Below, in pieces: positions 1 to 52,504 of a stretch of DNA of 64,000 nucleotides (positions are counted from its first letter, which is position 1; every line of letters starts with the position of its first letter). The position numbers and the translations under genes were made by a program. The DNA comes from Gammaproteobacteria bacterium. GTDB taxonomy: Bacteria; Pseudomonadota; Gammaproteobacteria; Thiotrichales; Thiotrichaceae. The notes beneath the pieces are model-generated. The model was given only the letters and a program-made list of their open reading frames with translations, did no database searches and had not been told where the DNA came from. Location: NCBI GenBank assembly GCA_018822845.1, contig JAHJJD010000049.1, forward strand, positions 1 to 64,000. Reading direction: 5' to 3'.

Positions 1-3
1 ACA

Positions 4-134
4 GTCCCAAAATAACTTCCCTGTATCCAAGCTGCCATGAAGAGGGCGACCACCGGTCGCCCCTACAGGGGATGATCTTCGTAGGGGCGACCGGTGGTCG
101 CCCTCTTGGGGGAGTCGGGGAGTTATTTCAGGAC
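4..134. repeat. Compound hairpin element 1 (GTAGGGGC family)
   Basis: Two exact inverted 25-base arms (42-66 and 81-105) are separated by 14 bases. Each arm is itself a near-palindrome built on GGGCGACC/GGTCGCCC. An imperfect outer inverted repeat encloses them: GTCCCAAAATAACTTCCC at 4-21 against GGGGAGTTATTTCAGGAC at 117-134. The element lies just downstream of guaA. It has the same plan as the element at 16849-16979 but a different core sequence. It looks like a non-coding REP/MITE-type element. No gene is seen here. Confidence 0.8.
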
Positions 135-174
135 AATTCCTTAATCCTACGAATCCCAGTTCAAGAAAAGGAGT

Positions 175-15178: not shown

Positions 15179-16846
15179 ATGAATAGCCCGGTCAAACCCA
15201 CACTCAACCACGGACACACCCTAACATCCTGGGATATGGATTTGCGTCAGCTCTGTGACACTGAGCTATTGTTGAATGGCGCTTTTGCGCCTTTACAGGG
15301 CTTCCTCAATGAAGCGGATTACCGTTGCGTGGTTGAAGGAATGCGCCTTGTCAACGGTCAGTTATGGCCAATACCGATTACACTGGATGTTACACAGCCA
15401 TTTGCTGATAGATTGGAAATTGGGCAAAAAATTGCCCTGCGCGACCCGGAAGGCATTTTAATTGCCACCCTGGCGCTTGAAAGTATCTGGATACCAGATA
15501 AACGCAAGGAAGCACTGAACGTATTCGGTACGGACAATATTTCCCACCCTGCCGTCGATTATCTGTACCACCATGCGGGCGAAGTTTATCTTGGCGGTAC
15601 ACTAAAAGCGGTTGAATTACCACAGCATCATGATTACCGACAACACCGCCATACTCCGGATGAACTCAAAGCTGCTTTCAAAAAGCTGGGGTGGAAACGC
15701 ATTATTGGTTTTCATACCAGCAGCCCAATGCATACTGCCCAGCGAGAGCTGACAGCACGCATTGCACGCGAGCTGGAAGCCAGCCTGTTGATTCACCCGG
15801 CAACTGGCATGGCCCAGGCGGGTGACGCCGGGCACTTTACCCTGGTGCGCTGCTACCAGTATCTGCTGGCATACTACCCGGAACAGAGCACGATGCTGAG
15901 CCTGCTGCCACTGGCAACGCGCATGGGTGGCCCGCGTGAAGCCGTGTGGCACGCCATCATCCGCAAGAATTACGGTTGCACGCACATTATCATTGAGCGT
16001 GACCATGCCAGCCCTGATGCCAATGACTGTAATGGCGAAACATTCTACCAGCCACATGATGCCCAGCAATTGGCCAGGGAATTTGCCGATGAGATTGGCA
16101 TTGGCATCGTCAATGCCCCAAAAATGGTCTACGTGCAGGATCGCACCGAATACGTAGCAGAATCCGAAGTTCGCCTGGGTGAGACGGTACTGGATATTTC
16201 CGGTGCAGAATTCCAGCGTCGTTTGCGTGCAGGCTTGGTGGTTCCGGAATGGTTTTCCTGCTCCGAGGTAGTCAACGAGTTGCGCAAGGTGCATCCTCCG
16301 CGCCACAGACAAGGCTTTACGGTCTTCTTTACCGGACTGTCGGGTGCGGGCAAATCCACCGTCGCCAAGGCACTTACGGTCAAAATGCTGGAGTTGGGCG
16401 GACGCCCGGTGACATTGCTGGATGGCGATGTAGTACGCAAACACTTGTCCAGCGAACTGGGCTTTTCCAGGGAACATCGCGACCTGAATATCAGGCGGAT
16501 CGGTTTTGTCGCCAGCGAGATCAGCAAAAATGGCGGTATTGCCATCTGCGCGCCCATCGCACCGTATGCCGCGACCAGACGCGAAGTACGGGAAATGGTG
16601 AGCACTCACGGCGGCTTTGTGGAAGTGTATGTGGCCACGCCCATTGAAGAATGTGAACGGCGCGACCGCAAGGGTTTGTACGCCAAGGCGCGGGCGGGAC
16701 TGATCAAGTGCTTCACGGGCGTTAATGACCCGTATGAAGTGCCGGAGAGACCAGAACTGCAGCTGGATACCAGCGGAATTTCGCCGGATGAATGTGCGCA
16801 TCAGGTACTGCTGACGCTGGAACGGCAGGGTTTTATCAAGAGCTAA
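15179..16846 (+). CDS. Sat-CysC fusion: ATP-sulfurylase-like domain plus APS kinase
   Basis: The 555-residue protein has an ATP-sulfurylase-like domain (about 1-370) joined to an APS kinase domain (about 375-555). The kinase half looks intact: P-loop FTGLSGAGKST near residue 385, LDGDVVRKHLS, NIRRIGFVA, CAPIAPYAATRR. It should make PAPS from APS and ATP. In the sulfurylase half the universal QxRNPxHxxH motif reads HTSSPMHTAQ (about 177-186) and GRDHAG reads ERDHAS, so key catalytic residues are changed. MGGPREAVWHAIIRKNYGCTH still marks the family. The sulfurylase reaction may be lost or altered. No clear ribosome site precedes the ATG. A polysaccharide phosphatase gene follows. Confidence 0.85.
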   Translation: MNSPVKPTLNHGHTLTSWDMDLRQLCDTELLLNGAFAPLQGFLNEADYRCVVEGMRLVNGQLWPIPITLDVTQPFADRLEIGQKIALRDPEGILIATLALESIWIPDKRKEALNVFGTDNISHPAVDYLYHHAGEVYLGGTLKAVELPQHHDYRQHRHTPDELKAAFKKLGWKRIIGFHTSSPMHTAQRELTARIARELEASLLIHPATGMAQAGDAGHFTLVRCYQYLLAYYPEQSTMLSLLPLATRMGGPREAVWHAIIRKNYGCTHIIIERDHASPDANDCNGETFYQPHDAQQLAREFADEIGIGIVNAPKMVYVQDRTEYVAESEVRLGETVLDISGAEFQRRLRAGLVVPEWFSCSEVVNELRKVHPPRHRQGFTVFFTGLSGAGKSTVAKALTVKMLELGGRPVTLLDGDVVRKHLSSELGFSREHRDLNIRRIGFVASEISKNGGIAICAPIAPYAATRREVREMVSTHGGFVEVYVATPIEECERRDRKGLYAKARAGLIKCFTGVNDPYEVPERPELQLDTSGISPDECAHQVLLTLERQGFIKS

Positions 16847-16848
16847 GG

Positions 16849-16979
16849 AACGTGCACGAAACAACATCCCTGACTCGGTACAACCGTGAAGAGGGCGTAT
16901 GCCATACGCCCCTACGAAGAACATCCGCTGTAGGGGCGTATGGCATACGCCCTCTTTGGGAAGTTGTTTCGTGCACGTT
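16849..16979. repeat. Compound hairpin element 2 (GTAGGGGC family)
   Basis: Exact inverted 25-base arms (16891-16915 and 16930-16954) are separated by 14 bases, with core GGCGTATGGCATACGCC. The outer arms AACGTGCACGAAACAAC and GTTGTTTCGTGCACGTT are a perfect 17-base inverted repeat. It starts 2 bases after the Sat-CysC stop codon. It shares the plan of element 1 but differs in both cores. This and a promoter fill the 334-base gene-free stretch before cpsB. Confidence 0.85.
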
Positions 16980-17050
16980 TCTAAATACTTGCAATGGAGC
17001 CCCTCCTGACATACTGATATGGCGGAACAGCACAATAAGCCGTTCCGGCC

Positions 17051-42855: not shown

Positions 42856-45315
42856 ATGGCGATCAAGAAATCTGAACTGTATTCCTCCCTGTGGGCTTCC
42901 TGCGACGAACTGCGTGGCGGCATGGACGCCAGCCAGTACAAGGATTACGTCCTGTTCATGCTGTTCATCAAATACATCTCGGACAAATACGCCAATTCCG
43001 ATGACTTCGCCACGCCCGTGAGCATTCCCCAAGGTGGTAGCTTCGCCGACATGGTGAAGATGAAAGGCAGCATCGGCATTGGCGACAAGATCAACAAACA
43101 GGTGATCCAGCCGCTGGTTGAGGCCAATGCCCGCCTTGCCCGCACCGACTTCCCCGATTTCAACGACCCGAACAAGCTGGGGGAAGGCAAGGCGATGGTG
43201 GAACGCCTCACCAACCTGATCAGCATTTTCCAGAAGCCGGAGCTGGATTTCTCCAAAAACCGCGCCGACCACGACGACATTCTCGGTGATGCCTACGAGT
43301 ACCTGATGCGCCACTTTGCGCAGGATAGTGGTAAGAGCAAGGGGCAATTCTATACGCCGTCGGAAGTCAGCCGCATCATTGCCAAAGTCATCGGCATTTC
43401 ACCGCACAATGCGCTGGCGAACACCACGGCTTATGATCCGACTTGCGGTTCCGGCTCACTGCTGCTGAAAGTCGCGGCGGAAGCGGGCAAACGCATTACG
43501 CTGGAAGGTCAGGAAAAAGACGTAACCACCGCCGGTCTGGCGCGGATGAACATGATCCTGCACGATTTCCCGACCGCCAACATCCTCAACGGCAATACGT
43601 TGGCCGCACCCAAGTTCAGGGATGGCGAACGGCTCAAGACCTATGATTACGTGGTCGCCAATCCACCGTTTTCCGACAAGAGCTGGAGTACCGGGCTGAC
43701 ACCCGGCAATGACCCGTTCCAGCGCTTTGAATGGGGTGAGCCGCCTGCCAAACAGGGCGATTACGCCTACCTGCTGCATATCATCCGTTCGATGAAAAGC
43801 AGCGGCAAAGCGGCCTGCATCCTGCCGCACGGTGTGTTGTTCCGGGGCAATGCCGAGGCGGTGATCCGCAAAAAGCTGGTCGAATCCGGCTACCTGAAAG
43901 GGGTTATCGGCCTGCCTGCCAACCTGTTTTACGGCACGGGCATCCCCGCCTGCATTCTGGTGCTGGACAAGGAAAATGCCACCGCCCGCAAAGGCATTTT
44001 CATGCTGGATGCCGCCAAAGGCTTTATCAAGGATGGCAACAAAAACCGCCTACGCGAACAAGACATCCACCGCATCGTCGACACCTTTACCAAGCAAACC
44101 GACACGCCCCGCTATGCCCGCATGGTGGCACATGACGAAATCAGCGACCCGAAAAACGCTTACAACCTCAACCTGCCGCGCTACATCGACAGCACCGAGC
44201 CGGAAGATACCCAAGACATCACCGCCCACCTGCGCGGCGGCATTCCTGAGCCAGACATCAACGCACTGGCTGCCTATTGGCAAGTGCTGCCGACACTGCG
44301 GGCGGCCTTGTTCACCCCGACAGCGCAAGCAGGCTATGCCAAGCTGACCTTGCCAATTGCGCAAGTCAAACCCTTCATCTTGAACCATGCCGAGTTCACC
44401 GCCTTCAAAACCACGGTGACACGCAGCTTTGACGCATGGCGGGTAGACAACACCCCGCACTTGCAAGCCTTTGGCAAAGACGCACACCCCAAAGCCCTGA
44501 TCGACACGCTCGCCGAAGCTTTGTTGAATGCCTTTAAAGCCGCGCCCTTGCTGGATGCTTACGACGTGTACCAACACCTGATGGATTACTGGGCAGAAAC
44601 CATGCAGGACGATGCCTACCTGATTGCTGCCGATGGCTGGGTAGCCACCCCGCAACGCATCATCGACACCGACAAAAAAGGCAAAACCAAAGACAAAGGT
44701 TGGGCGTGTGACCTCATTCCCAAGCCGTATATCGTGGCGCGTTACTTTGCCGCGCAACAAACCGCATTGGAAGCCTTGCAAACCCAACTGGAAAGCGTCA
44801 CCGCGAACTTAAGCGAGTTGGAAGAAGAACACAGCGGCGAAGATGCTGCATTTTCCGGCTTCGAGAAAATCAACGCCGCCGCCATCAAAGACCGCCTCAA
44901 AGAGTTAAAAGCCGAACAAGGCGACTGGAAAGCGGCGGAAGAAGCCGTGCTGAACCAATGGCTAAAACTGAGCGGGCAAGAAGCCACCCTGAAAAAATCC
45001 ATCAAGGAAGCCGATGCCGCGCTGGATAAACTCGCTTATGAGAAATACCCCGCCCTGAGCGTGGCGGAAATCCAGACCTTGGTGATAGATGACAAATGGA
45101 TGGCAGCCCTGACCATCACCGTGCAAGGCGAACTCGATCGCGTCTCGCAAACCCTCACCACCCGCATCCGCGAACTTGCGGAACGCTACGCCACGCCGTT
45201 ACCGCAATTGGTGGAAGAGGTCGCGGGGTTGGCAGCGCGGGTCGATGCGCATTTGAAAAAGATGGGGGTTGACCATAATCCCAATCCCACCAATCCCCGT
45301 AGGGGCAATTCATGA
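42856..45315 (+). CDS. hsdM: Type I restriction-modification methyltransferase subunit HsdM
   Basis: This N6-adenine methyltransferase subunit works with HsdS to modify host DNA and with HsdR to cleave foreign DNA. It has 819 residues. The HsdM_N helical domain (1-150, KSELYSSLWASCDELRGGMD) precedes the N6-MTase core, with motif I PTCGSGSLLLKVAAEAG (about 195) and catalytic NPPFSDKSW (about 268). A long C-terminal region to residue 819 includes a coiled coil. The last residues TNPRRGNS and the stop are encoded by a REP palindrome. The TGA overlaps the ATG of the next ORF (ATGA). The natural C-terminus may have been replaced by the insertion. Confidence 0.95.
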   Translation: MAIKKSELYSSLWASCDELRGGMDASQYKDYVLFMLFIKYISDKYANSDDFATPVSIPQGGSFADMVKMKGSIGIGDKINKQVIQPLVEANARLARTDFPDFNDPNKLGEGKAMVERLTNLISIFQKPELDFSKNRADHDDILGDAYEYLMRHFAQDSGKSKGQFYTPSEVSRIIAKVIGISPHNALANTTAYDPTCGSGSLLLKVAAEAGKRITLEGQEKDVTTAGLARMNMILHDFPTANILNGNTLAAPKFRDGERLKTYDYVVANPPFSDKSWSTGLTPGNDPFQRFEWGEPPAKQGDYAYLLHIIRSMKSSGKAACILPHGVLFRGNAEAVIRKKLVESGYLKGVIGLPANLFYGTGIPACILVLDKENATARKGIFMLDAAKGFIKDGNKNRLREQDIHRIVDTFTKQTDTPRYARMVAHDEISDPKNAYNLNLPRYIDSTEPEDTQDITAHLRGGIPEPDINALAAYWQVLPTLRAALFTPTAQAGYAKLTLPIAQVKPFILNHAEFTAFKTTVTRSFDAWRVDNTPHLQAFGKDAHPKALIDTLAEALLNAFKAAPLLDAYDVYQHLMDYWAETMQDDAYLIAADGWVATPQRIIDTDKKGKTKDKGWACDLIPKPYIVARYFAAQQTALEALQTQLESVTANLSELEEEHSGEDAAFSGFEKINAAAIKDRLKELKAEQGDWKAAEEAVLNQWLKLSGQEATLKKSIKEADAALDKLAYEKYPALSVAEIQTLVIDDKWMAALTITVQGELDRVSQTLTTRIRELAERYATPLPQLVEEVAGLAARVDAHLKKMGVDHNPNPTNPRRGNS

Positions 45316-45326
45316 ATTGCCCCTAC
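45299..45326. repeat. REP palindrome copy 1 (hsdM end/RAYT start)
   Basis: A perfect 28-base palindrome built from the half GTAGGGGCAATTCA and its inverse. It encodes the stop codon of hsdM and the ATG of the RAYT ORF. It shares the extended left flank CCCACCAATCCCC with copy 3. Confidence 0.95.
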
Positions 45327-45950
45327 AACATCGCTCTCAACACCAATGGCAACCACCGTTACAATCCCGATATTCACCATCGGAGAACAATTCGGCGGCG
45401 GGAATACGATTATTCACAACGGGGAGCGTATTTCATGACGATCTGCACTCGTGATCGTGAATGTTTATTTGGAGAGATTGTAAACGAGACCATGCATATG
45501 AATGAATATGGTCGGATCATTGCCGAGGAGTGGGCAGCGTTAACTGAAGTACAGGATGCAATTGAAATAGGGGAGTTTGTCGTGATGCCCAATCATTTTC
45601 ATGGCATCATCATTTTCACCGTCGATATTGATGATATTGACCATGTTGACCATACCGTAGGGGCAATTCATGAATTGCCCCTACAAGAACAACGTAGAAA
45701 GATGGCATTACCCAAGGTCATTGGACGGTTTAAAATGCGCTCTGCCAAACGTATCAATCTATGTCGCAACACAAGCGGCATACCTGTTTGGCAACGCAAT
45801 TATTACGAACATATCATTCGTGACCAAGCAGACTACACACGCATTGCCGAATACATTACCGACAATCCACGCCGCTGGGTGAATGATTCATTGCATCCCG
45901 ATAACGATAACATGTGTCCTCCCACCAATCCCCGTAGGGGCAATTCATGA
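45312..45950 (+). CDS. REP-associated tyrosine transposase (RAYT, Y1/HUH family)
   Basis: The 212-residue single-strand transposase belongs to the Y1_Tnp/IS200-like family. Signatures are REYDYSQRGAYFMTICTRDR near the N-terminus, the HUH-type VMPNHFHGIII (about residue 93) and the catalytic Tyr in VWQRNYYEHIIRD (about 163). YITDNPRRWVND is at the C-terminus. RAYTs are thought to move REP palindromes. Four copies of one palindrome lie in and around this gene. Copy 2 is inside it, read as VGAIHELPL, and copy 3 supplies its last codons (TNPRRGNS). The true start may be later, since the first residues (MNCPY) come from copy 1. Confidence 0.88.
   Translation: MNCPYNIALNTNGNHRYNPDIHHRRTIRRREYDYSQRGAYFMTICTRDRECLFGEIVNETMHMNEYGRIIAEEWAALTEVQDAIEIGEFVVMPNHFHGIIIFTVDIDDIDHVDHTVGAIHELPLQEQRRKMALPKVIGRFKMRSAKRINLCRNTSGIPVWQRNYYEHIIRDQADYTRIAEYITDNPRRWVNDSLHPDNDNMCPPTNPRRGNS
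45657..45684. repeat. REP palindrome copy 2 (inside RAYT)
   Basis: An identical 28-base palindrome inserted in frame in the RAYT gene and translated as VGAIHELPL, between the HUH motif and the tyrosine helix. Confidence 0.95.
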
Positions 45951-45961
45951 ATTGCCCCTAC
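45934..45961. repeat. REP palindrome copy 3 (RAYT end)
   Basis: An identical 28-base palindrome that provides the RAYT stop codon. With its left flank CCCACCAATCCCC it repeats the hsdM end, so both proteins end in TNPRRGNS. Confidence 0.95.
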
Positions 45962-46051
45962 AACACCACGCAGACCACCCACAACGGAAACATGCGTAAT
46001 CATCCCCACAACCCCATCCGCAACGGTGATATGTGTAATCTCCCCATCCCC

Positions 46052-46079
46052 GTAGGGGCAATTCATGAATTGCCCCTAC
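46052..46079. repeat. REP palindrome copy 4 (before hsdS)
   Basis: An identical 28-base palindrome 31 bases before the hsdS start. The stretch 45951-46110 contains only copies 3 and 4 and short imperfect repeats such as CATGCGTAATC and TATGTGTAATC. Confidence 0.95.
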
Positions 46080-46110
46080 AACACCACCATCACCGAAAGG
46101 GAGGCAAAGC

Positions 46111-47274
46111 ATGGAACTGAAAGTAGGCTACAAACAAACCGAAATCGGCATAATCCCCGAAGATTGGGAAGTCAAATCTATTGAGGAAATCACAACTCGT
46201 ATTGGCGATGGATTACATGGCACGCCATTATATTCATCTAACGGCGAGTACTTCTTTATTAATGGCAATAATATTTATGAAGGAAAAATCGTTGTTACTG
46301 ATGACACAAAGCTAGTTAGTCATGCAGAGTTTATTAAACATCGTAAACCCATCAATGAAACGACAATATTGATGTCAATCAATGGGACAATTGGTAATTT
46401 AGGCTTTTTTAATAATGAAGCATTAGTACTTGGAAAAAGTGCAGCATATTTAAATATTAATCAAAATATATCTAAAAATCTTATTTATTACTCACTTCAG
46501 ACCCATAGTACTAAACAGCAATTTCTTGATGGATTGACCGGATCAACAATAGGTAATCTCGGTTTAACAACAATTCGCCAAACACAAATTCCTCTACCAC
46601 CAACAAGAATCGAACAAACCGCCATCGCCTCCGCCCTCTCCGACATGGATGCCCTGCTGGACGGTCTTGACCGCCTCATCACCAAAAAGCGCAACCTCAA
46701 ACAAGCCGCCATGCAGCAGCTTCTCACGGGCAAAACTCGGTTAGCGGGGTTTGAGGGGGAGTGGGAGGTGAAGCGGTTGGGGGACTTGCTGACTATCTGT
46801 CATGGGAAAAGCCAGAAAGATGTTGAAACTATTGATGGTACTTACCCAATACTAGCTACTGGTGGGCAAATAGGTACAGCTTCACGCGCTCTTTATGATC
46901 AGCCATCGGTACTAATTGGACGCAAAGGCACAATTAATCAGCCTCAATATATGGATACACCATTTTGGACGGTAGATACTCTTTTCTATTCAATTTTGAA
47001 GAATAATAACAATGCAAAGTTTCTTTACTACCGCTTCTGTTTAATTGATTGGATGCAGTTCAATGAAGCATCTGGTGTTCCAAGTCTCAACGCTAGAACG
47101 ATTGAAAGCATAACCATTAAAACACCATTACCTGAAGAGCAAGAAGCGATTGCGGCGGTGCTTGCGGATATGGATGCGGAGATTGCGGCGTTGGAGCAGC
47201 GGCGCACGAAGACACGGGACATTAAGCAGGGGATGATGCAGGAGTTGCTGACGGGGAGGACGCGGCTGGTATGA
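46111..47274 (+). CDS. hsdS: Type I restriction-modification specificity subunit HsdS
   Basis: HsdS sets the DNA sequence recognised by the type I complex. It has 387 residues and starts after GGGAGGCAAAGC. Two target-recognition domains (about 15-165 and 215-340) each end in a conserved helical spacer: RIEQTAIASALSDMDALLDGLDRLITKKRN and EEQEAIAAVLADMDAEIAALEQRRTKTRD. Both spacers are followed by QQLLTGKTRL or QELLTGRTRL. The two recognition domains are clearly AT-rich, while the spacers match the surrounding GC-rich genes, a mark of domain exchange. The stop overlaps the next gene's start (ATGA). Confidence 0.94.
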   Translation: MELKVGYKQTEIGIIPEDWEVKSIEEITTRIGDGLHGTPLYSSNGEYFFINGNNIYEGKIVVTDDTKLVSHAEFIKHRKPINETTILMSINGTIGNLGFFNNEALVLGKSAAYLNINQNISKNLIYYSLQTHSTKQQFLDGLTGSTIGNLGLTTIRQTQIPLPPTRIEQTAIASALSDMDALLDGLDRLITKKRNLKQAAMQQLLTGKTRLAGFEGEWEVKRLGDLLTICHGKSQKDVETIDGTYPILATGGQIGTASRALYDQPSVLIGRKGTINQPQYMDTPFWTVDTLFYSILKNNNNAKFLYYRFCLIDWMQFNEASGVPSLNARTIESITIKTPLPEEQEAIAAVLADMDAEIAALEQRRTKTRDIKQGMMQELLTGRTRLV

Positions 47275-47975
47275 ATACACCACAACCTAATGGCTACCAA
47301 ACATGGTTGACCGATGATCCTGAATTTGTGCAGCAGCCTGCTGCACGATTGCCGTGGTTTCATATTTGCACGGTCATGGACAGGTTGCCCATCGCCAGCA
47401 TGATCCCGGACGATGTGGAACGTGAATTACGCTCGCTCGACGAACTGGGGCGGGTGATTCTGATGCTTGCCCACCGTCTGGGTGAAATCAGCAATGAGGA
47501 CATCCAGCACTACCGGCGCGAACACCCCCGCGACATTGGCGTGCGCCTCAAACAACTGGTAACGGCAAACTGGCTGGAGAAAGCCGGGCATGGGCGCGGA
47601 ACCCGTTACCGTTTGCCCGTGCGGGTACAGGTGGATGGTGCATCCCCCGCCAACTCCGAACATTTGAGTGAAGACTCCGAACATTTAGGCAAAAGCTCCG
47701 AACATTTCGAGACTGAACAAGAATTGGCGTTGTTACAGATTGCAGAAAATGTGCGGAACAAACGCAAGGTTTCCAAACCCCTGATGGAAGCAACTATCCT
47801 CACCCTTTGTGCAGCGGATTGGCTGTCGCTGAAAATGTTGGCACATCTACTAAACCGCACCCCTGATTCCCTAAGAAACCACTACATTACGCCTATGTTG
47901 AGTGATGGTCGTTTGCAGGCACGGATGCCCGATAAACCTAATCATCCCAATCAGGCTTACAGGAAGGGGATATGA
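47271..47975 (+). CDS. Winged-helix protein, probable C-terminal part of an AlbA_2-type ATP-binding protein
   Basis: The 234-residue protein has an N-terminal wHTH-like part (EISNEDIQHYRREHPRDIGVRLKQLVTANWLEKAGHGRGTRYRLP). A hydrophilic stretch with repeated SEHL follows (NSEHLSEDSEHLGKSSEHF). A second wHTH-like part has LSLKMLAHLLNRTPDSLRNHYI and DGRLQARMPDKPNHPNQAYRK. The same arrangement is often the C-terminal half of AlbA_2/HATPase proteins near restriction systems. The N-terminal half is absent here, so this may be a split or shortened relative. It overlaps hsdS and the next gene by 4 bases each, so it is part of the operon. A DNA-binding role is inferred. Confidence 0.65.
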   Translation: MNTPQPNGYQTWLTDDPEFVQQPAARLPWFHICTVMDRLPIASMIPDDVERELRSLDELGRVILMLAHRLGEISNEDIQHYRREHPRDIGVRLKQLVTANWLEKAGHGRGTRYRLPVRVQVDGASPANSEHLSEDSEHLGKSSEHFETEQELALLQIAENVRNKRKVSKPLMEATILTLCAADWLSLKMLAHLLNRTPDSLRNHYITPMLSDGRLQARMPDKPNHPNQAYRKGI

Positions 47976-49324
47976 ACGAACACCAAACCATCGAGTGGAA
48001 AGAAGTCTGGCGCGATGAATACCTGAAATGGATTTGCGGCTTTGCCAATGCGCAAGGCGGCACGCTGATTATCGGCAAGGATGACAACGGCAACACCACG
48101 GGGCTACCCAACGCCCGCAAATTGCTGGAAGACATCCCCAATAAAGTGCGCGACATCCTCGGCATCGTCGTTGACGTAAACCTGCACACCGAAAACCAGC
48201 GCGATTATCTCGCCATCGTGGTCGAAGCCCATCCCTACCCGGTGAGTTACAAAGGCGAATACCACTACCGCAGCGGCAGCACCAAACAGGAACTCAAAGG
48301 CGCGGCACTCGACGCTTTCCTGCTGAAAAAGCACGGTGTGCGTTGGGATGCAGTTCCCGTCCCCAATATCAGCCTCAAGGATTGCAGCCCGACCGCCTTC
48401 CAGCTTTTCCGCACCAAAGCCACCAAAAGCGGGCGCATGAGCGACGACGTGCTACACGACAACAATGAATCGCTGCTGGAAAACCTGCAACTGCACGACG
48501 GGCGTTACCTCAAACGCGCCACCACCCTGCTGTTTTACGACAAGCCCGAAAAATACGTTTCCGGCGCAACCATCAAGCTTGGCTTTTTCATCACTGACGA
48601 CGAATTGCGCTTTCAGGACGAAATCCACGGCAACCTGTTCCAGCAAGTCGATCAAACACTGGATACACTGTTTACCAAATACCTGAAAGCCCACATCAGC
48701 TACGAAGGCATCCAGCGGGTCGAACGCTTCCTGTTCCCGCCGCTTGCCCTGCGCGAAGCCCTGCTCAATGCCGTGGTACACAAGGACTACAGCAGCGGCA
48801 TCCCCATCCAGATCAGCGTCTACGAAGACCGGATTGTGTTCTGGAATTACGGACAACTCCCCGAACACTGGACGCTCGAACGCCTGCTGGGCAAACATCC
48901 TTCCAACCCATTCAACCCACTGATTGCCAATACCTTCTTCCGCTGTGGCTATATTGAGTCATGGGGTCGTGGTATCGAAAAGATCAACCGCGAATGCGAA
49001 AAGTGGGGCATCCCACCGCCTGAATACGATTACGGTATGTCGGGGCTGATGCTGACGTTTCGTGCCAACCCCGCACAATTGGCGGAATCACTGGGAAAAA
49101 TGTCGGTAAAAACGTCGGTAGAAACACCCAAAATGCCGGTAAAAACGCCCGAGCAAATACTGATAATCCTGGCGGAAGACTCCAGCCTGACACTGGCTGA
49201 AGTGGCTGAAAGGATTGGCAAAACCTTGCGTACCGTAGAGCGTGCAGCCACTAAACTGGTGAAAGCGGGGCGTTTGCGTTATGTAGGCCCGAAAAAAGGT
49301 GGTCATTGGGAGGTCATCGAATGA
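47972..49324 (+). CDS. AlbA_2 (Schlafen-type)/HATPase protein associated with restriction system
   Basis: The 450-residue protein begins with an AlbA_2 domain (EWKEVWRDEYLKWICGFANAQGGTLIIGKDDNGNTTGL, about 8-125), the nucleic-acid-binding module shared with Schlafen proteins. A GHKL/HATPase_c_4 region follows (FPPLALREALLNAVVHKDYS, about 255; YIESWGRGIEKINREC, about 330). A C-terminal wHTH (LTLAEVAERIGKTLRTVERAATKLVKAGRLRYVG) ends it. Such proteins are often labelled RecG-like or 'divergent AAA' and occur inside type I restriction operons; their role is unsettled. It is coupled to the preceding gene (ATGA) and lies 54 bases before hsdR. Confidence 0.85.
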   Translation: MNEHQTIEWKEVWRDEYLKWICGFANAQGGTLIIGKDDNGNTTGLPNARKLLEDIPNKVRDILGIVVDVNLHTENQRDYLAIVVEAHPYPVSYKGEYHYRSGSTKQELKGAALDAFLLKKHGVRWDAVPVPNISLKDCSPTAFQLFRTKATKSGRMSDDVLHDNNESLLENLQLHDGRYLKRATTLLFYDKPEKYVSGATIKLGFFITDDELRFQDEIHGNLFQQVDQTLDTLFTKYLKAHISYEGIQRVERFLFPPLALREALLNAVVHKDYSSGIPIQISVYEDRIVFWNYGQLPEHWTLERLLGKHPSNPFNPLIANTFFRCGYIESWGRGIEKINRECEKWGIPPPEYDYGMSGLMLTFRANPAQLAESLGKMSVKTSVETPKMPVKTPEQILIILAEDSSLTLAEVAERIGKTLRTVERAATKLVKAGRLRYVGPKKGGHWEVIE

Positions 49325-49347
49325 CCACAAACCTCCCAACCACCGCC

Positions 49348-49360
49348 GTAGGGGCGAATA
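49348..49360. repeat. Degenerate half of a GTAGGGGC palindrome
   Basis: GTAGGGGCGAATA matches one half of the REP family and lies in the 54-base spacer before hsdR. The second half is missing. Confidence 0.5.
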
Positions 49361-49378
49361 CCAACCAAGGATTTGCCA

Positions 49379-52300
49379 ATGCCTGACCAAACCCGCCCGG
49401 AACGCCACACCCAAAACCGAGTAGTCCAACTGTTCACCGACCAGAACCACCCTGACTGGCTGGGCTACCGCTACCTCGGCGACTGGCACAAACGCACCAA
49501 CAACCGCCCTCTTGAAGCGGAATTGTTACAGGCCAACCTGAAACAACGCGGCTATTCCGATGCTCACATTGCCGCCGCCCTGACCAAACTGGAAACCGCC
49601 GCCGATACCACCGGCATCACGCTCTATCAGGCCAACCTGCGCATCTACCAGTTGCTACGCTACGGCATCCCGCTACAAATAGCTGTCGGGCAAGCCCATG
49701 AAACCGTCCACCTGATCGACTGGGACACACCCAAAAACAATGATTTCGCCCTCGCTGAAGAAGTCACCCTCAAAGGTGGCGCAGAACGCCGCCCCGATAT
49801 AGTCCTCTACCTCAACGGCATCGCCATCGCCGTGATTGAGCTGAAACGCGGCTCGGTTGAAGTCACCGACGCCATCCGCCAGCTTGTCAGCAATCAGGAA
49901 AAGATTTTCAACGAAGGCTTTTTCAGCACCGTGCAATTCGTGTTCGCTGGTAACGACTCACAAGGTTTGTACTACGGCACAACCGGCACAGCAGAAACGT
50001 ATTTCCTGGCATGGAAAGACGAAACCGGCAGCATCAACGCCCCCGCCTCCGGTGAATTGCTGGACAAACCGTTGGCGCAACTGTGCCACCCCGTCCGCCT
50101 GCTTGACCTGATGCGTAACTTCATCATCTTTGACGGAGGCATCAAGAAAGTCCCGCGCCCGCACCAGTTTTTCGGCATCAAGGCCGCACAGGAACGCATC
50201 CGCCAACGTGAAGGCGGCTACATCTGGCACACGCAAGGCAGCGGCAAGAGCATCCTGATGGTACTGCTGGCGAAATGGATCATGGAACACGACCCCGACG
50301 CCCGCATCCTGGTCATCACCGACCGCGACGAACTCGACAAGCAGATCGAAGGCGTGATGCGCAATGCGGGTGTCATCGGCGAGGAAGCAGCCTCCCCACG
50401 CATTACTTCCCGCGCCCAGTTCCTTGAAAAACTGACTTCTACCACCCCGCGCCTGCTGTGCGCCCTGATCCACAAATTCGAGCCAGACCTCAAGGGCGCA
50501 GTACCGCGCATCCATGGGCGCTTTTACGTCTTCGTCGATGAATGTCATCGCACCCAGGGCGGCGACATGAACCAGCAAATGAAACAGCGCTGGCTGAAAG
50601 ACGCCATTTTCATCGGCTTCACTGGCACGCCGTTGTTACGCAAGGAAAAGAAAACCACTGAGGCTGTCTTCGGTACGCCGATCCACAGCTACAAGTTCCA
50701 TCAGGCCGTCGCCGACAAGGTAGTGCTGGATTTGAAGTACGAAGCCCGTGACGTACCGCAACGCCTGACCACGCAAAAAGCCGTAGATCGCTGGTTTGAT
50801 CAGGCCACCAGAAATCTCAACAACTTCCAGAAAGCCGTGTTGCGCAAACGCTGGGCGAACATGGAAAAGCTGATGAGCGCCAAGGAACGCAAGGAGCGCA
50901 TCATCGCCAGCATTATTGAGGATTTCAGCCTCAAGACCCGCCTCAACAATGACCGGGGCACGGCGATTCTGGTGGCGGCCTCCATCTACGACGCCTGCCA
51001 CTATTTCCGCCTGTTGCAGAACATGCCTTTTGGCAAGCATTGCGGCATCATCACCTCCTACGAACCCAATGCCAACGCGGTTTCCAAAGAGCCGAAAGAC
51101 AGCGACGAACGCTATAAGTACGACACCTACCAACAGTATGTGCTAAAGGATTTTGCCAGCACCGACAAATACGAGACGGAAATCAAGCGTCGCTTCATCC
51201 ATGAGCCTGCCAACTGCAAACTGCTGATCGTGGTCAGCAAACTGCTGACGGGTTTCGATGCACCTTCCTGCACCTATATTTATCTGGATAACGAACTGCA
51301 CGACCACAACCTGTTCCAGGCCATTTGCCGCACCAACCGTCTGGACGGCGACGACAAGGATTACGGTTACATCGTCGACTTCAAGGAACTGTTCGGCGAC
51401 GTACAGGAAGCGATTGCCGTCTACAGCTCCGACGAACTGGAGCCGGACGAAAACGGCGGCACGGAGGGCAACAACGTCAAGCTCAAGGACTGGCTGCAAG
51501 AGGGCCGGAAACAACTGGATGCTGCCCGTGAAGCCCTGCAATACCTGTGCGAACCCGTAGCGCAACCGCGCCAACTGGAGCAATACCTGCACTATTTCTG
51601 CGGCAACGCCAGTAACCCCGAAGCCCTGAACGAAACCGAAGCGCTGCGCATCCCGTTCTACAAGGCGGTGGCAATGTTTATCCGCGCTTTCGCAGCCATT
51701 TCCCAGCACCTTGCCGAGGCAGGCTACCCGGCGGGTGAAATTGCCCGCCTGAACAGCGAGGTCGGCTTCTTTAGCGAGATTCGCGCCGCCATCAAGCATT
51801 ATTCCGGCGAAGAGATGGATACCAAGCCCTATGAAGCGGACATGCGTCACCTCATCAACACCTACATCCAGGCTGACCCAGCTGATCCGCTGGGCGCAAT
51901 CGACCAATACTCACTGGTGGAATTGATCGTCGAAACCGGCATCCACGACGCCATCGCCCGCAAGCTCAACGAAAAAGGCAAGCTGTCGAAGAATGCCGTC
52001 GCCGAGAGCATCATCAACAACATCCGCAAAACCATCATCCGCAACCAGCTCACTGACCCGCGTTTCTACGCACAGATGTCCAAACTGCTGGATGACCTGA
52101 TCAAACAGCAGCGCGATGATGCGGCATCCTATGAGGAATTCCTCAAAAAAGCCGAAGACCTGATCAAGCAGCAGGCGCAAGGCCAGACCAGCGAGGCCAT
52201 TCCCGCCGAATTGCAGGGCAAGCGCGAAGCCATTGTTATCTATAATAACCTGCCGGACATCCTCGCCAGCATTCAATCCGGGGACAAATCCAGCGAAACT

Positions 52301-52504
52301 CCCCACCCGGAATACGGTAACACCCGTGCTACGCTGGCGCTGAAAATAGACCGCACCATGCGCGAACACGCCCCGGCAAGCTGGCGCGGCGACGAAGCGC
52401 GGGAAAGCCAGGTGCTGAACGCATTGTTCCGCGTCATGAACAAAAACCGTGAAGCCACCAGAGCGCTGTTCGACATCATCAAAAACATGCACGGCTACGA
52501 ATGA
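49379..52504 (+). CDS. hsdR: Type I restriction endonuclease/translocase subunit HsdR
   Basis: HsdR is the motor and nuclease of the type I complex. The start is at [19 protein letters not shown] (49379) after CCAAGGA, giving 1041 residues. The nuclease domain has the PD-(D/E)xK motif [21 protein letters not shown] (about 136-156). The SF2 helicase part has Walker A TQGSGKSI (about 284), DECH (about 386), [17 protein letters not shown] and the arginine-finger region CRTNRLDG. A helical C-terminal domain binds the methylase core. No frameshift is seen, so the system looks active if HsdM tolerates its altered end. Confidence 0.96.

Follow-up and report, generated by a model that had tools for sequence, protein, structure and literature searches.

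GTAG-type REPs carry a GTAG tetranucleotide, a perfect stem and a loop of 3-4 nt, and two of them arranged with GTAG on the inside form a TT dimer (Di Nocera et al. 2013, PMC3733652). Dimers of A. variabilis (GTAG-15) were reported inside long palindromes (PMC3733652). TnpA_REP has been shown in vitro to cut REPs at CT and to recombine them (PMC8266576). The suggestion that gene conversion contributes to REP evolution dates from 1988 and has stayed open (Higgins et al., as cited in PMC3116915 and PMC3733652). Template switching between the arms of an inverted repeat leads to homogenisation of the arms and inversion of the spacer (PMC8604942). REP dimers, RAYTs and MITEs are already known kinds of element.

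The stretch of 64,000 nt analysed here (the window) lies on contig C30 of a Thiothrix draft genome of 4.0 Mb (G000; other genomes are numbered likewise) and contains two compound palindromes. The best explanation, to which we assign a probability of roughly 0.65, is that these are tail-to-tail dimers of GTAG-type REPs, the probable substrate of a subclass 2.4 RAYT, that they were captured in a MITE with ISAzo13-type ends, and that their cores are overwritten from other REPs and their arms made alike by template switching. Within this explanation, the identification of a MITE layer, a genus-wide layer of REP dimers and an exchange of REP cores in place is, in our judgement, very likely correct.

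Two compound palindromes in the window

A first-pass annotation of the window had located hairpin elements at 4-134 and 16849, and both are present there. It had described exact inverted arms in a 25-14-25 geometry. The exact pairing and the 14-nt spacing hold, but not the arm length, which is 27 nt in element 1 (40-66 and 81-107) as well as in element 2 (16889-16915 and 16930-16956). Each arm pair sits within a longer palindrome. The remaining description agreed with our analysis: edges of GTAGGGGC and GCCCTC and a left flank ending ...TGAAGAGGGCG in both elements, outer inverted repeats AAATAACTTCCC and GAAACAACATCCC, and differing inner cores (GACCGGTGGTC versus TATGGCATA). Compared with element 2, the spacer of element 1 is inverted relative to the outer flanks. 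In the window GTAGGGGC was observed 14 times (1.25 expected), a count reached in none of 100 shuffles. When folded as single-stranded DNA and compared with shuffles, the whole elements had z-scores of -11 and -17, and those of the inner dimers ranged from -12 to -13. A search against Rfam revealed no model match at the elements and two tRNAs only in the window. The features are listed in Table 1.

Table 1. Features of the two elements and of the RAYT locus, in window positions.
Feature	Position	Strand	Basis
Element 1, MITE with REP dimer, left end cut	1..140	+	7 further genomic copies, starts of intact copies
Left GTAG-type REP of element 1, core GACCGGTGGTC read on minus strand	42..66	-	Inverted arms, dimer listing
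14-nt spacer of element 1, aggggatgatcttc	67..80	.	Related 14-nt spacers in many dimers
Right GTAG-type REP of element 1	81..105	+	Inverted arms, dimer listing
Probable right target duplication (TTA) of element 1	141..143	.	Position, TTA/TAA in other copies; left copy off contig
Left TAA target duplication of element 2, stop codon of upstream gene 15179-16846	16844..16846	.	
Element 2, 135-bp MITE, terminal inverted repeats 16847-16870 and 16958-16981	16847..16981	+	Terminal inverted repeat common to ISAzo13-family IS
Left REP of element 2, core TATGGCATA	16891..16915	-	Inverted arms, dimer listing
14-nt spacer of element 2	16916..16929	.	Dimer listing
Right REP of element 2	16930..16954	+	Inverted arms, dimer listing
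Right TAA target duplication of element 2	16982..16984	.	
Double-foot REP GTAGGGGCAATTCATGAATTGCCCCTAC, 5' flank of RAYT gene	45299..45326	.	
RAYT gene, 212 aa, HuH motif NHFH, candidate catalytic Tyr in WQRNYYEHIIRD	45312..45950	+	NCBIfam, Pfam, PDB
Double-foot REP GTAGGGGCAATTCATGAATTGCCCCTAC, in-frame insertion within RAYT gene	45657..45684	.	
Double-foot REP GTAGGGGCAATTCATGAATTGCCCCTAC, 3' end of RAYT gene, provides stop codon	45934..45961	.	
Double-foot REP GTAGGGGCAATTCATGAATTGCCCCTAC, fourth copy	46052..46079	.	

Element 1 is truncated by the contig start and lacks the left target duplication and GGA. Seven further copies of window 1-137 are present in the genome (95-100% identity), and intact copies start with a TTA or TAA target duplication followed by GGAACAGTCCC..., GGA included. 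When element 2 inserted, the stop codon (TAA) of the gene upstream was duplicated; judged from its sequence, this gene presumably encodes a bifunctional ATP sulfurylase/APS kinase.

A MITE forms the outer layer

In both elements the outer layer is formed by a MITE whose insertion duplicates 3 bp of the target. The MITE measures about 135 bp, is without coding capacity, has terminal inverted repeats (GGAACGTGCACGAAAYAACWTCCC) and is flanked by duplications of TAA, TTA or ATA. An empty site illustrates the insertion: in G015 the MITE interrupts GATGATGGTTAGGTATTC, which is uninterrupted in G004, G009 and G010, and TTA is duplicated in G015. For element 2, the search revealed neither a precise empty site nor a relative with both flanking genes in synteny. 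The MITE ends match an 825-bp IS in G015, the ORF of which is a DDE_Tnp_ISAZ013 transposase. In G000 the IS is known from contig ends only, two of which carry a closely similar IS end (93% identity). The MITE may thus have been moved by the transposase of an ISAzo13-type IS; movement of REPs or MITE is in either case something we infer by comparing sequences.

A single MITE site behind guaA, common to G000 and G015, was considered and rejected. The flanking sequences differ, and hence the two MITEs are independent insertions. The G000 draft contigs C28, C30, C55 and C96 end within the element-1 MITE; consequently, the copy number of the MITE is probably underestimated.

REP dimers occur across the genus

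The inner unit reads GAGGGC-core-GCCCCTAC-spacer-GTAGGGGC-core-GCCCTC. About 35 such dimers are present in this Thiothrix genome, and 164 were gathered across the genus by a pattern search, in which strongly degenerate dimers are under-represented. Much of the genus carries REP dimers, for the most part with no MITE around them. In G000, a minority of the dimers lies within the MITE layer, while most stand alone between unrelated flanks.

In both units of each window element GTAG stands directly 5' of the stem (GTAGGGGC). Across 47 distinct units, G1, T2 and G4 of this foot are invariant and A3 is conserved in at least 90%. As in GTAG-type REPs, the stem is palindromic, the loop is short (3-4 nt) and the many copies often occur as dimers; the inverted doublet can fold as a single hairpin. 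Most of the 55 spacers of 14 nt resemble one consensus, but unrelated spacers occur in other dimers, and excision was not observed. Among the fetched loci there were no clean empty sites for stand-alone dimers. Instead, a collapse to a single REP was observed in G010 and the loss of one REP in G000.

Next to the RAYT, G001 and G009 carry a REP dimer (L398/L404) where the orthologous position of G010 (L350) holds one REP, consistent with a deletion between direct repeats within the two REPs. Among the matches listed, the GTAGGGGC...GCCC shell with arbitrary palindromic cores also appears in many phyla, among them Chloroflexota, Cyanobacteria, Planctomycetota, Armatimonadota, Myxococcota, Ruminococcus and others.

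RAYT genes and their REPs

The RAYT of the window matched NCBIfam REP_Tyr_transpos (E 2.4e-18; 66 bits, curated cut-off 80), Pfam Y1_Tnp (22.5 bits, just under the cut-off of 23) and, weakly, the TnpA_REP structure PDB 4er8 (E=0.008). Since its Pfam score falls below the cut-off, a Pfam search of the genome gave no Y1 transposase. The Pfam-based reading of a genome without RAYT was rejected when the gene was found at other GTAGGGGC copies. NHFH, WQ and the Tyr are present in the protein, and YITDNP is one residue off YIxNNP. This RAYT is likely to process the GTAGGGGC REPs.

The REPs at the RAYT locus read GTAGGGGC-AATTCATGAATT-GCCCCTAC, that is, the shell of the elements with another core, and among the places listed the core AATTCATGAATT occurs at its own locus only. 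A second RAYT in this genome (locus L069, contig C101) is flanked by ACC-core REPs with the loop GGC where element 1 has GGT. A scan of all fetched loci revealed RAYTs adjoining ACC-core REPs also in G001, G009 and G010, and no RAYT of the window subgroup linked to TAT-core REPs, the commonest class. Six RAYTs of this subgroup were present among 111 listed dimer-pattern loci from multiple phyla, all six with an internal REP. The Y1 proteins found by Pfam in relatives include sequences of the IS200 type and of other RAYT types that lack a GTAGGGGC repeat at the gene; the nearest such repeats lie about 1.2 kb off, in G007.

The RAYT/REP unit of the window lies between hsdM (42856-45315) and hsdS (46111-47274) of a type I restriction-modification operon (42856-52504), which also comprises hsdR (49373-52504). 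The stop codons of hsdM and of the RAYT gene both derive from a double-foot REP, and both proteins end ...NPRRGNS; the insertion may therefore have altered the C-terminus of HsdM. In PADLOC, a 450-aa ORF by the operon (47972-49324) matched pAgo-associated models weakly. On a predicted viral contig (L552, IMG/VR), GTAGGGGC REPs lie a short distance downstream of a RAYT relative (38% identity).

The arms of a dimer change together

All elements were gathered and tested for covariation, a check that the first-pass annotation had proposed, and the outcome was positive: many further elements exist, and their pairing is kept. Across the 47 distinct REP units, 96.0% of the pair cells are paired (82.9% in shuffles), 57 cells are changed on both sides (23.9 in shuffles) and the covariation score is 0.355 (0.145 in shuffles, with 0 of 500 reaching the observed score), although these shuffles overstate independence because the units are related. 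As a control, sliding the partner strand position abolished the signal. The genus holds 31 core sequences, and all four inner pairs are intact in 312 of 327 REPs.

From such paired changes the earlier annotation had argued for selection on a folded form. The paired changes are real; selection does not follow from them, since the arms of a dimer also agree in their loops, share a mismatch, and enclose spacers that have been inverted. The arms of a dimer agree in 32 of 36 cases in G000, 19 of 31 in G001 and 21 of 33 in G009, as opposed to means of 11.7, 4.6 and 5.0 in within-genome shuffles. The loops, which are unpaired within a REP, agree between the arms in 39 of 45 ACC-type dimers (14 expected). 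One G001 dimer carries an identical stem-breaking mismatch in both arms (GTCTTGCATAC). Most stem mismatches are confined to one arm, and homogenisation is thus incomplete.

Copying of whole dimers adds to the agreement of arms, and orthologous comparisons therefore weigh more. Between G001 and G009 orthologues, concerted loop changes were observed in groups 11 and 38. Spacers are inverted at six orthologous loci (134, 47, 48, 143, 124 and 62), a count from which locus 163 was left out, its MITE being in different places. Template switching is a mutational process that would yield paired changes without selection, and it plausibly homogenises the arms here.

Cores are exchanged in place

At eight orthologous loci, with both flanks aligned to the same junction, the core class has changed while the spacer is kept (at least 75%). 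Cores are thus exchanged between conserved flanks and around a conserved spacer, and the REP shell (GTAGGGGC...GCCCTC) is nearly invariant. At locus 87, for example, G001 has GACCGGCGGTC[GAAGACCGTCCCCT] and G006 has GTATTGCATAC[GAAGACCGTCCCCT]; at locus 90, three core classes surround CATCCTCC, CATCCCCC and CATCTTCC. In 18 pairs in which both arms had changed class, divergence amounted to 57% in the core, 12.4% in the flank, 11.3% in the spacer and 1.2% in the shell; these pairs share loci and genomes and do not represent 18 independent events. Hybrid dimers were also observed (e.g. G006 L411, G009 L406 and G001 L402) and are likely one-arm intermediates of the exchange. In-place replacement of cores appears to be undescribed in the open-access literature searched, which contained no relevant report on GTAGGGGC or on REPs and template switching.

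ACC dimers dominate in G001 (23 of 31) and G009 (23 of 33), TAT dimers in the other genomes. In a guaA tree, the inner cluster of which is poorly resolved, the TAT-rich genomes G000, G013 and G011/G015 branch outside the cluster with G001 and G009. ACC is therefore probably the derived class in G001 and G009. At the group 3 locus AAT is likely the older state, judged from G000 and G013.

How cores might be exchanged

We propose that single REPs would be overwritten by copying from another REP, which would give rise to hybrid dimers; the copying could be a gene conversion, an ectopic template switch or a strand transfer by the RAYT. Template switching from arm to arm would then equalise the arms and sometimes flip the spacer, producing what appear as paired changes, and the shell would persist if the RAYT needs GTAG and the base of the hairpin. 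We consider this combination of core copying, arm template switching and a shell kept by the RAYT to be plausible, with the odds about even. Intermediate cores (ACT, AAT) exist and leave stepwise change some room. More tentatively, REP populations might change specificity and not address, with RAYT or recombination overwriting cores genome-wide, REP by REP. A new core class would then sweep conserved sites, as ACC over TAT in the lineage of G001 and G009, and template switching between arms would complete each dimer.

The exchange could also be catalysed by the RAYT itself, cutting at CT by the REP and putting a REP strand of its own class into an existing site, so that classes spread with their RAYT. 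Such a route would draw on the in vitro activity of TnpA_REP at CT (PMC8266576) and fits the REP edge GCCC|TCTTC, found in almost all units, as well as the location of RAYTs by ACC-core REPs in the two genomes with a majority of ACC dimers, G001 and G009. However, the RAYT of G010 is ACC-linked, yet its four listed dimers are TAT, and REP-into-REP replacement by a RAYT is unreported in the open-access literature searched. We regard this route as possible but doubtful.

Selection on a folded RNA or DNA (a terminator, an mRNA stabiliser or a protein site) would hold the hairpin by compensatory substitutions while the sequence otherwise drifts. The strong covariation is what it would leave behind, as are compensated changes within a single arm (AACC/GGTT, GACT/AGTC) next to an unchanged other arm, and both window elements lie just downstream of genes. 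Yet it predicts neither the agreement of loops between arms nor a stem-breaking change in both, neither spacer inversions nor a wholesale change of core with 1% change in the shell, and Rfam has no matching model. As the explanation of the whole pattern it is unlikely. Some selection may still act on the hairpin of the REP, which could serve the RAYT as its substrate or function as RNA.

Stepwise compensatory mutation at each locus, from ACC through ACT and AAT to TAT, finds every step of the ladder among the 31 cores. It is nevertheless quite improbable: as many as 18 positions, spread over the four half-stems of the cores, differ around spacers that are the same or almost the same, and hybrids join complete, perfectly paired cores of two classes. 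Independent insertions of different REP dimers at one hot spot in different species are less credible still. REPs and MITEs can share preferred positions, as the independent MITEs behind guaA illustrate, but differing cores at one and the same junction enclose a common spacer sequence, which such insertions would not produce. Mis-joined repeats, a concern raised by the G000 contigs that end inside the MITE, would hardly account for false inversions and core swaps, given that a dimer is only about 68 bp, below ordinary read length, and that G001, G009, G006 and G015, which enter the key comparisons, are assembled into 1-4 contigs.

The preferred reading, copying of cores followed by template switching between arms, carries a warning: perfect covariation in inverted repeats can come from inter-arm copying and not from selection on structure. 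In orthologous Thiothrix dimers, flanks, spacer and core can be tracked separately, and the idea of gene conversion therefore becomes directly testable. In addition, REP dimers are shown to be carried within a DDE-type MITE.

Comparison with known systems

The ISAzo13-family IS and the MITE have terminal repeats in common, the IS encoding a DDE_Tnp_ISAZ013 transposase, and the 3-bp duplication is seen in the MITE. Only the ends of about 22-24 bp are common to both, and the interior of the MITE is a REP dimer.

Akin to the GTAG-tagged REP families (PMC3733652), the Thiothrix REPs have a GTAG foot, a short perfect stem, a loop of 2-4 nt, inverted dimers with GTAG inside and spacers that vary from locus to locus, and some of those families also lie in longer palindromes. 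Thiothrix is absent from that paper. In the present case a single conserved shell is common to several core classes, and the palindrome around the dimer could be identified as an ISAzo13-type MITE, for which both a target duplication and an empty site were found. With REPINs (Bertels and Rainey 2011, PMC3116915) the dimers share the inverted REP doublet, the one long hairpin and the many related copies per genome; in contrast to REPINs, the spacers are mostly locus-specific and the REP core of one locus differs between species.

The window RAYT resembles TnpA_Y1 subclass 2.4 / RAYT group 4 (PMC6006769) in its HuH (NHFH) and WQ motifs, in the double-foot REPs flanking the gene and in the in-frame REPs between HuH and Tyr. 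It has YITDNP and not YIxNNP, and was assigned by these described features, not by a tree. The dimers finally share arm homogenisation and spacer inversion with the template switching of PMC8604942. There, short arms and spacers in yeast coding DNA are concerned; here it is a bacterial REP population, in which both are combined with an exchange of the arm sequence itself.
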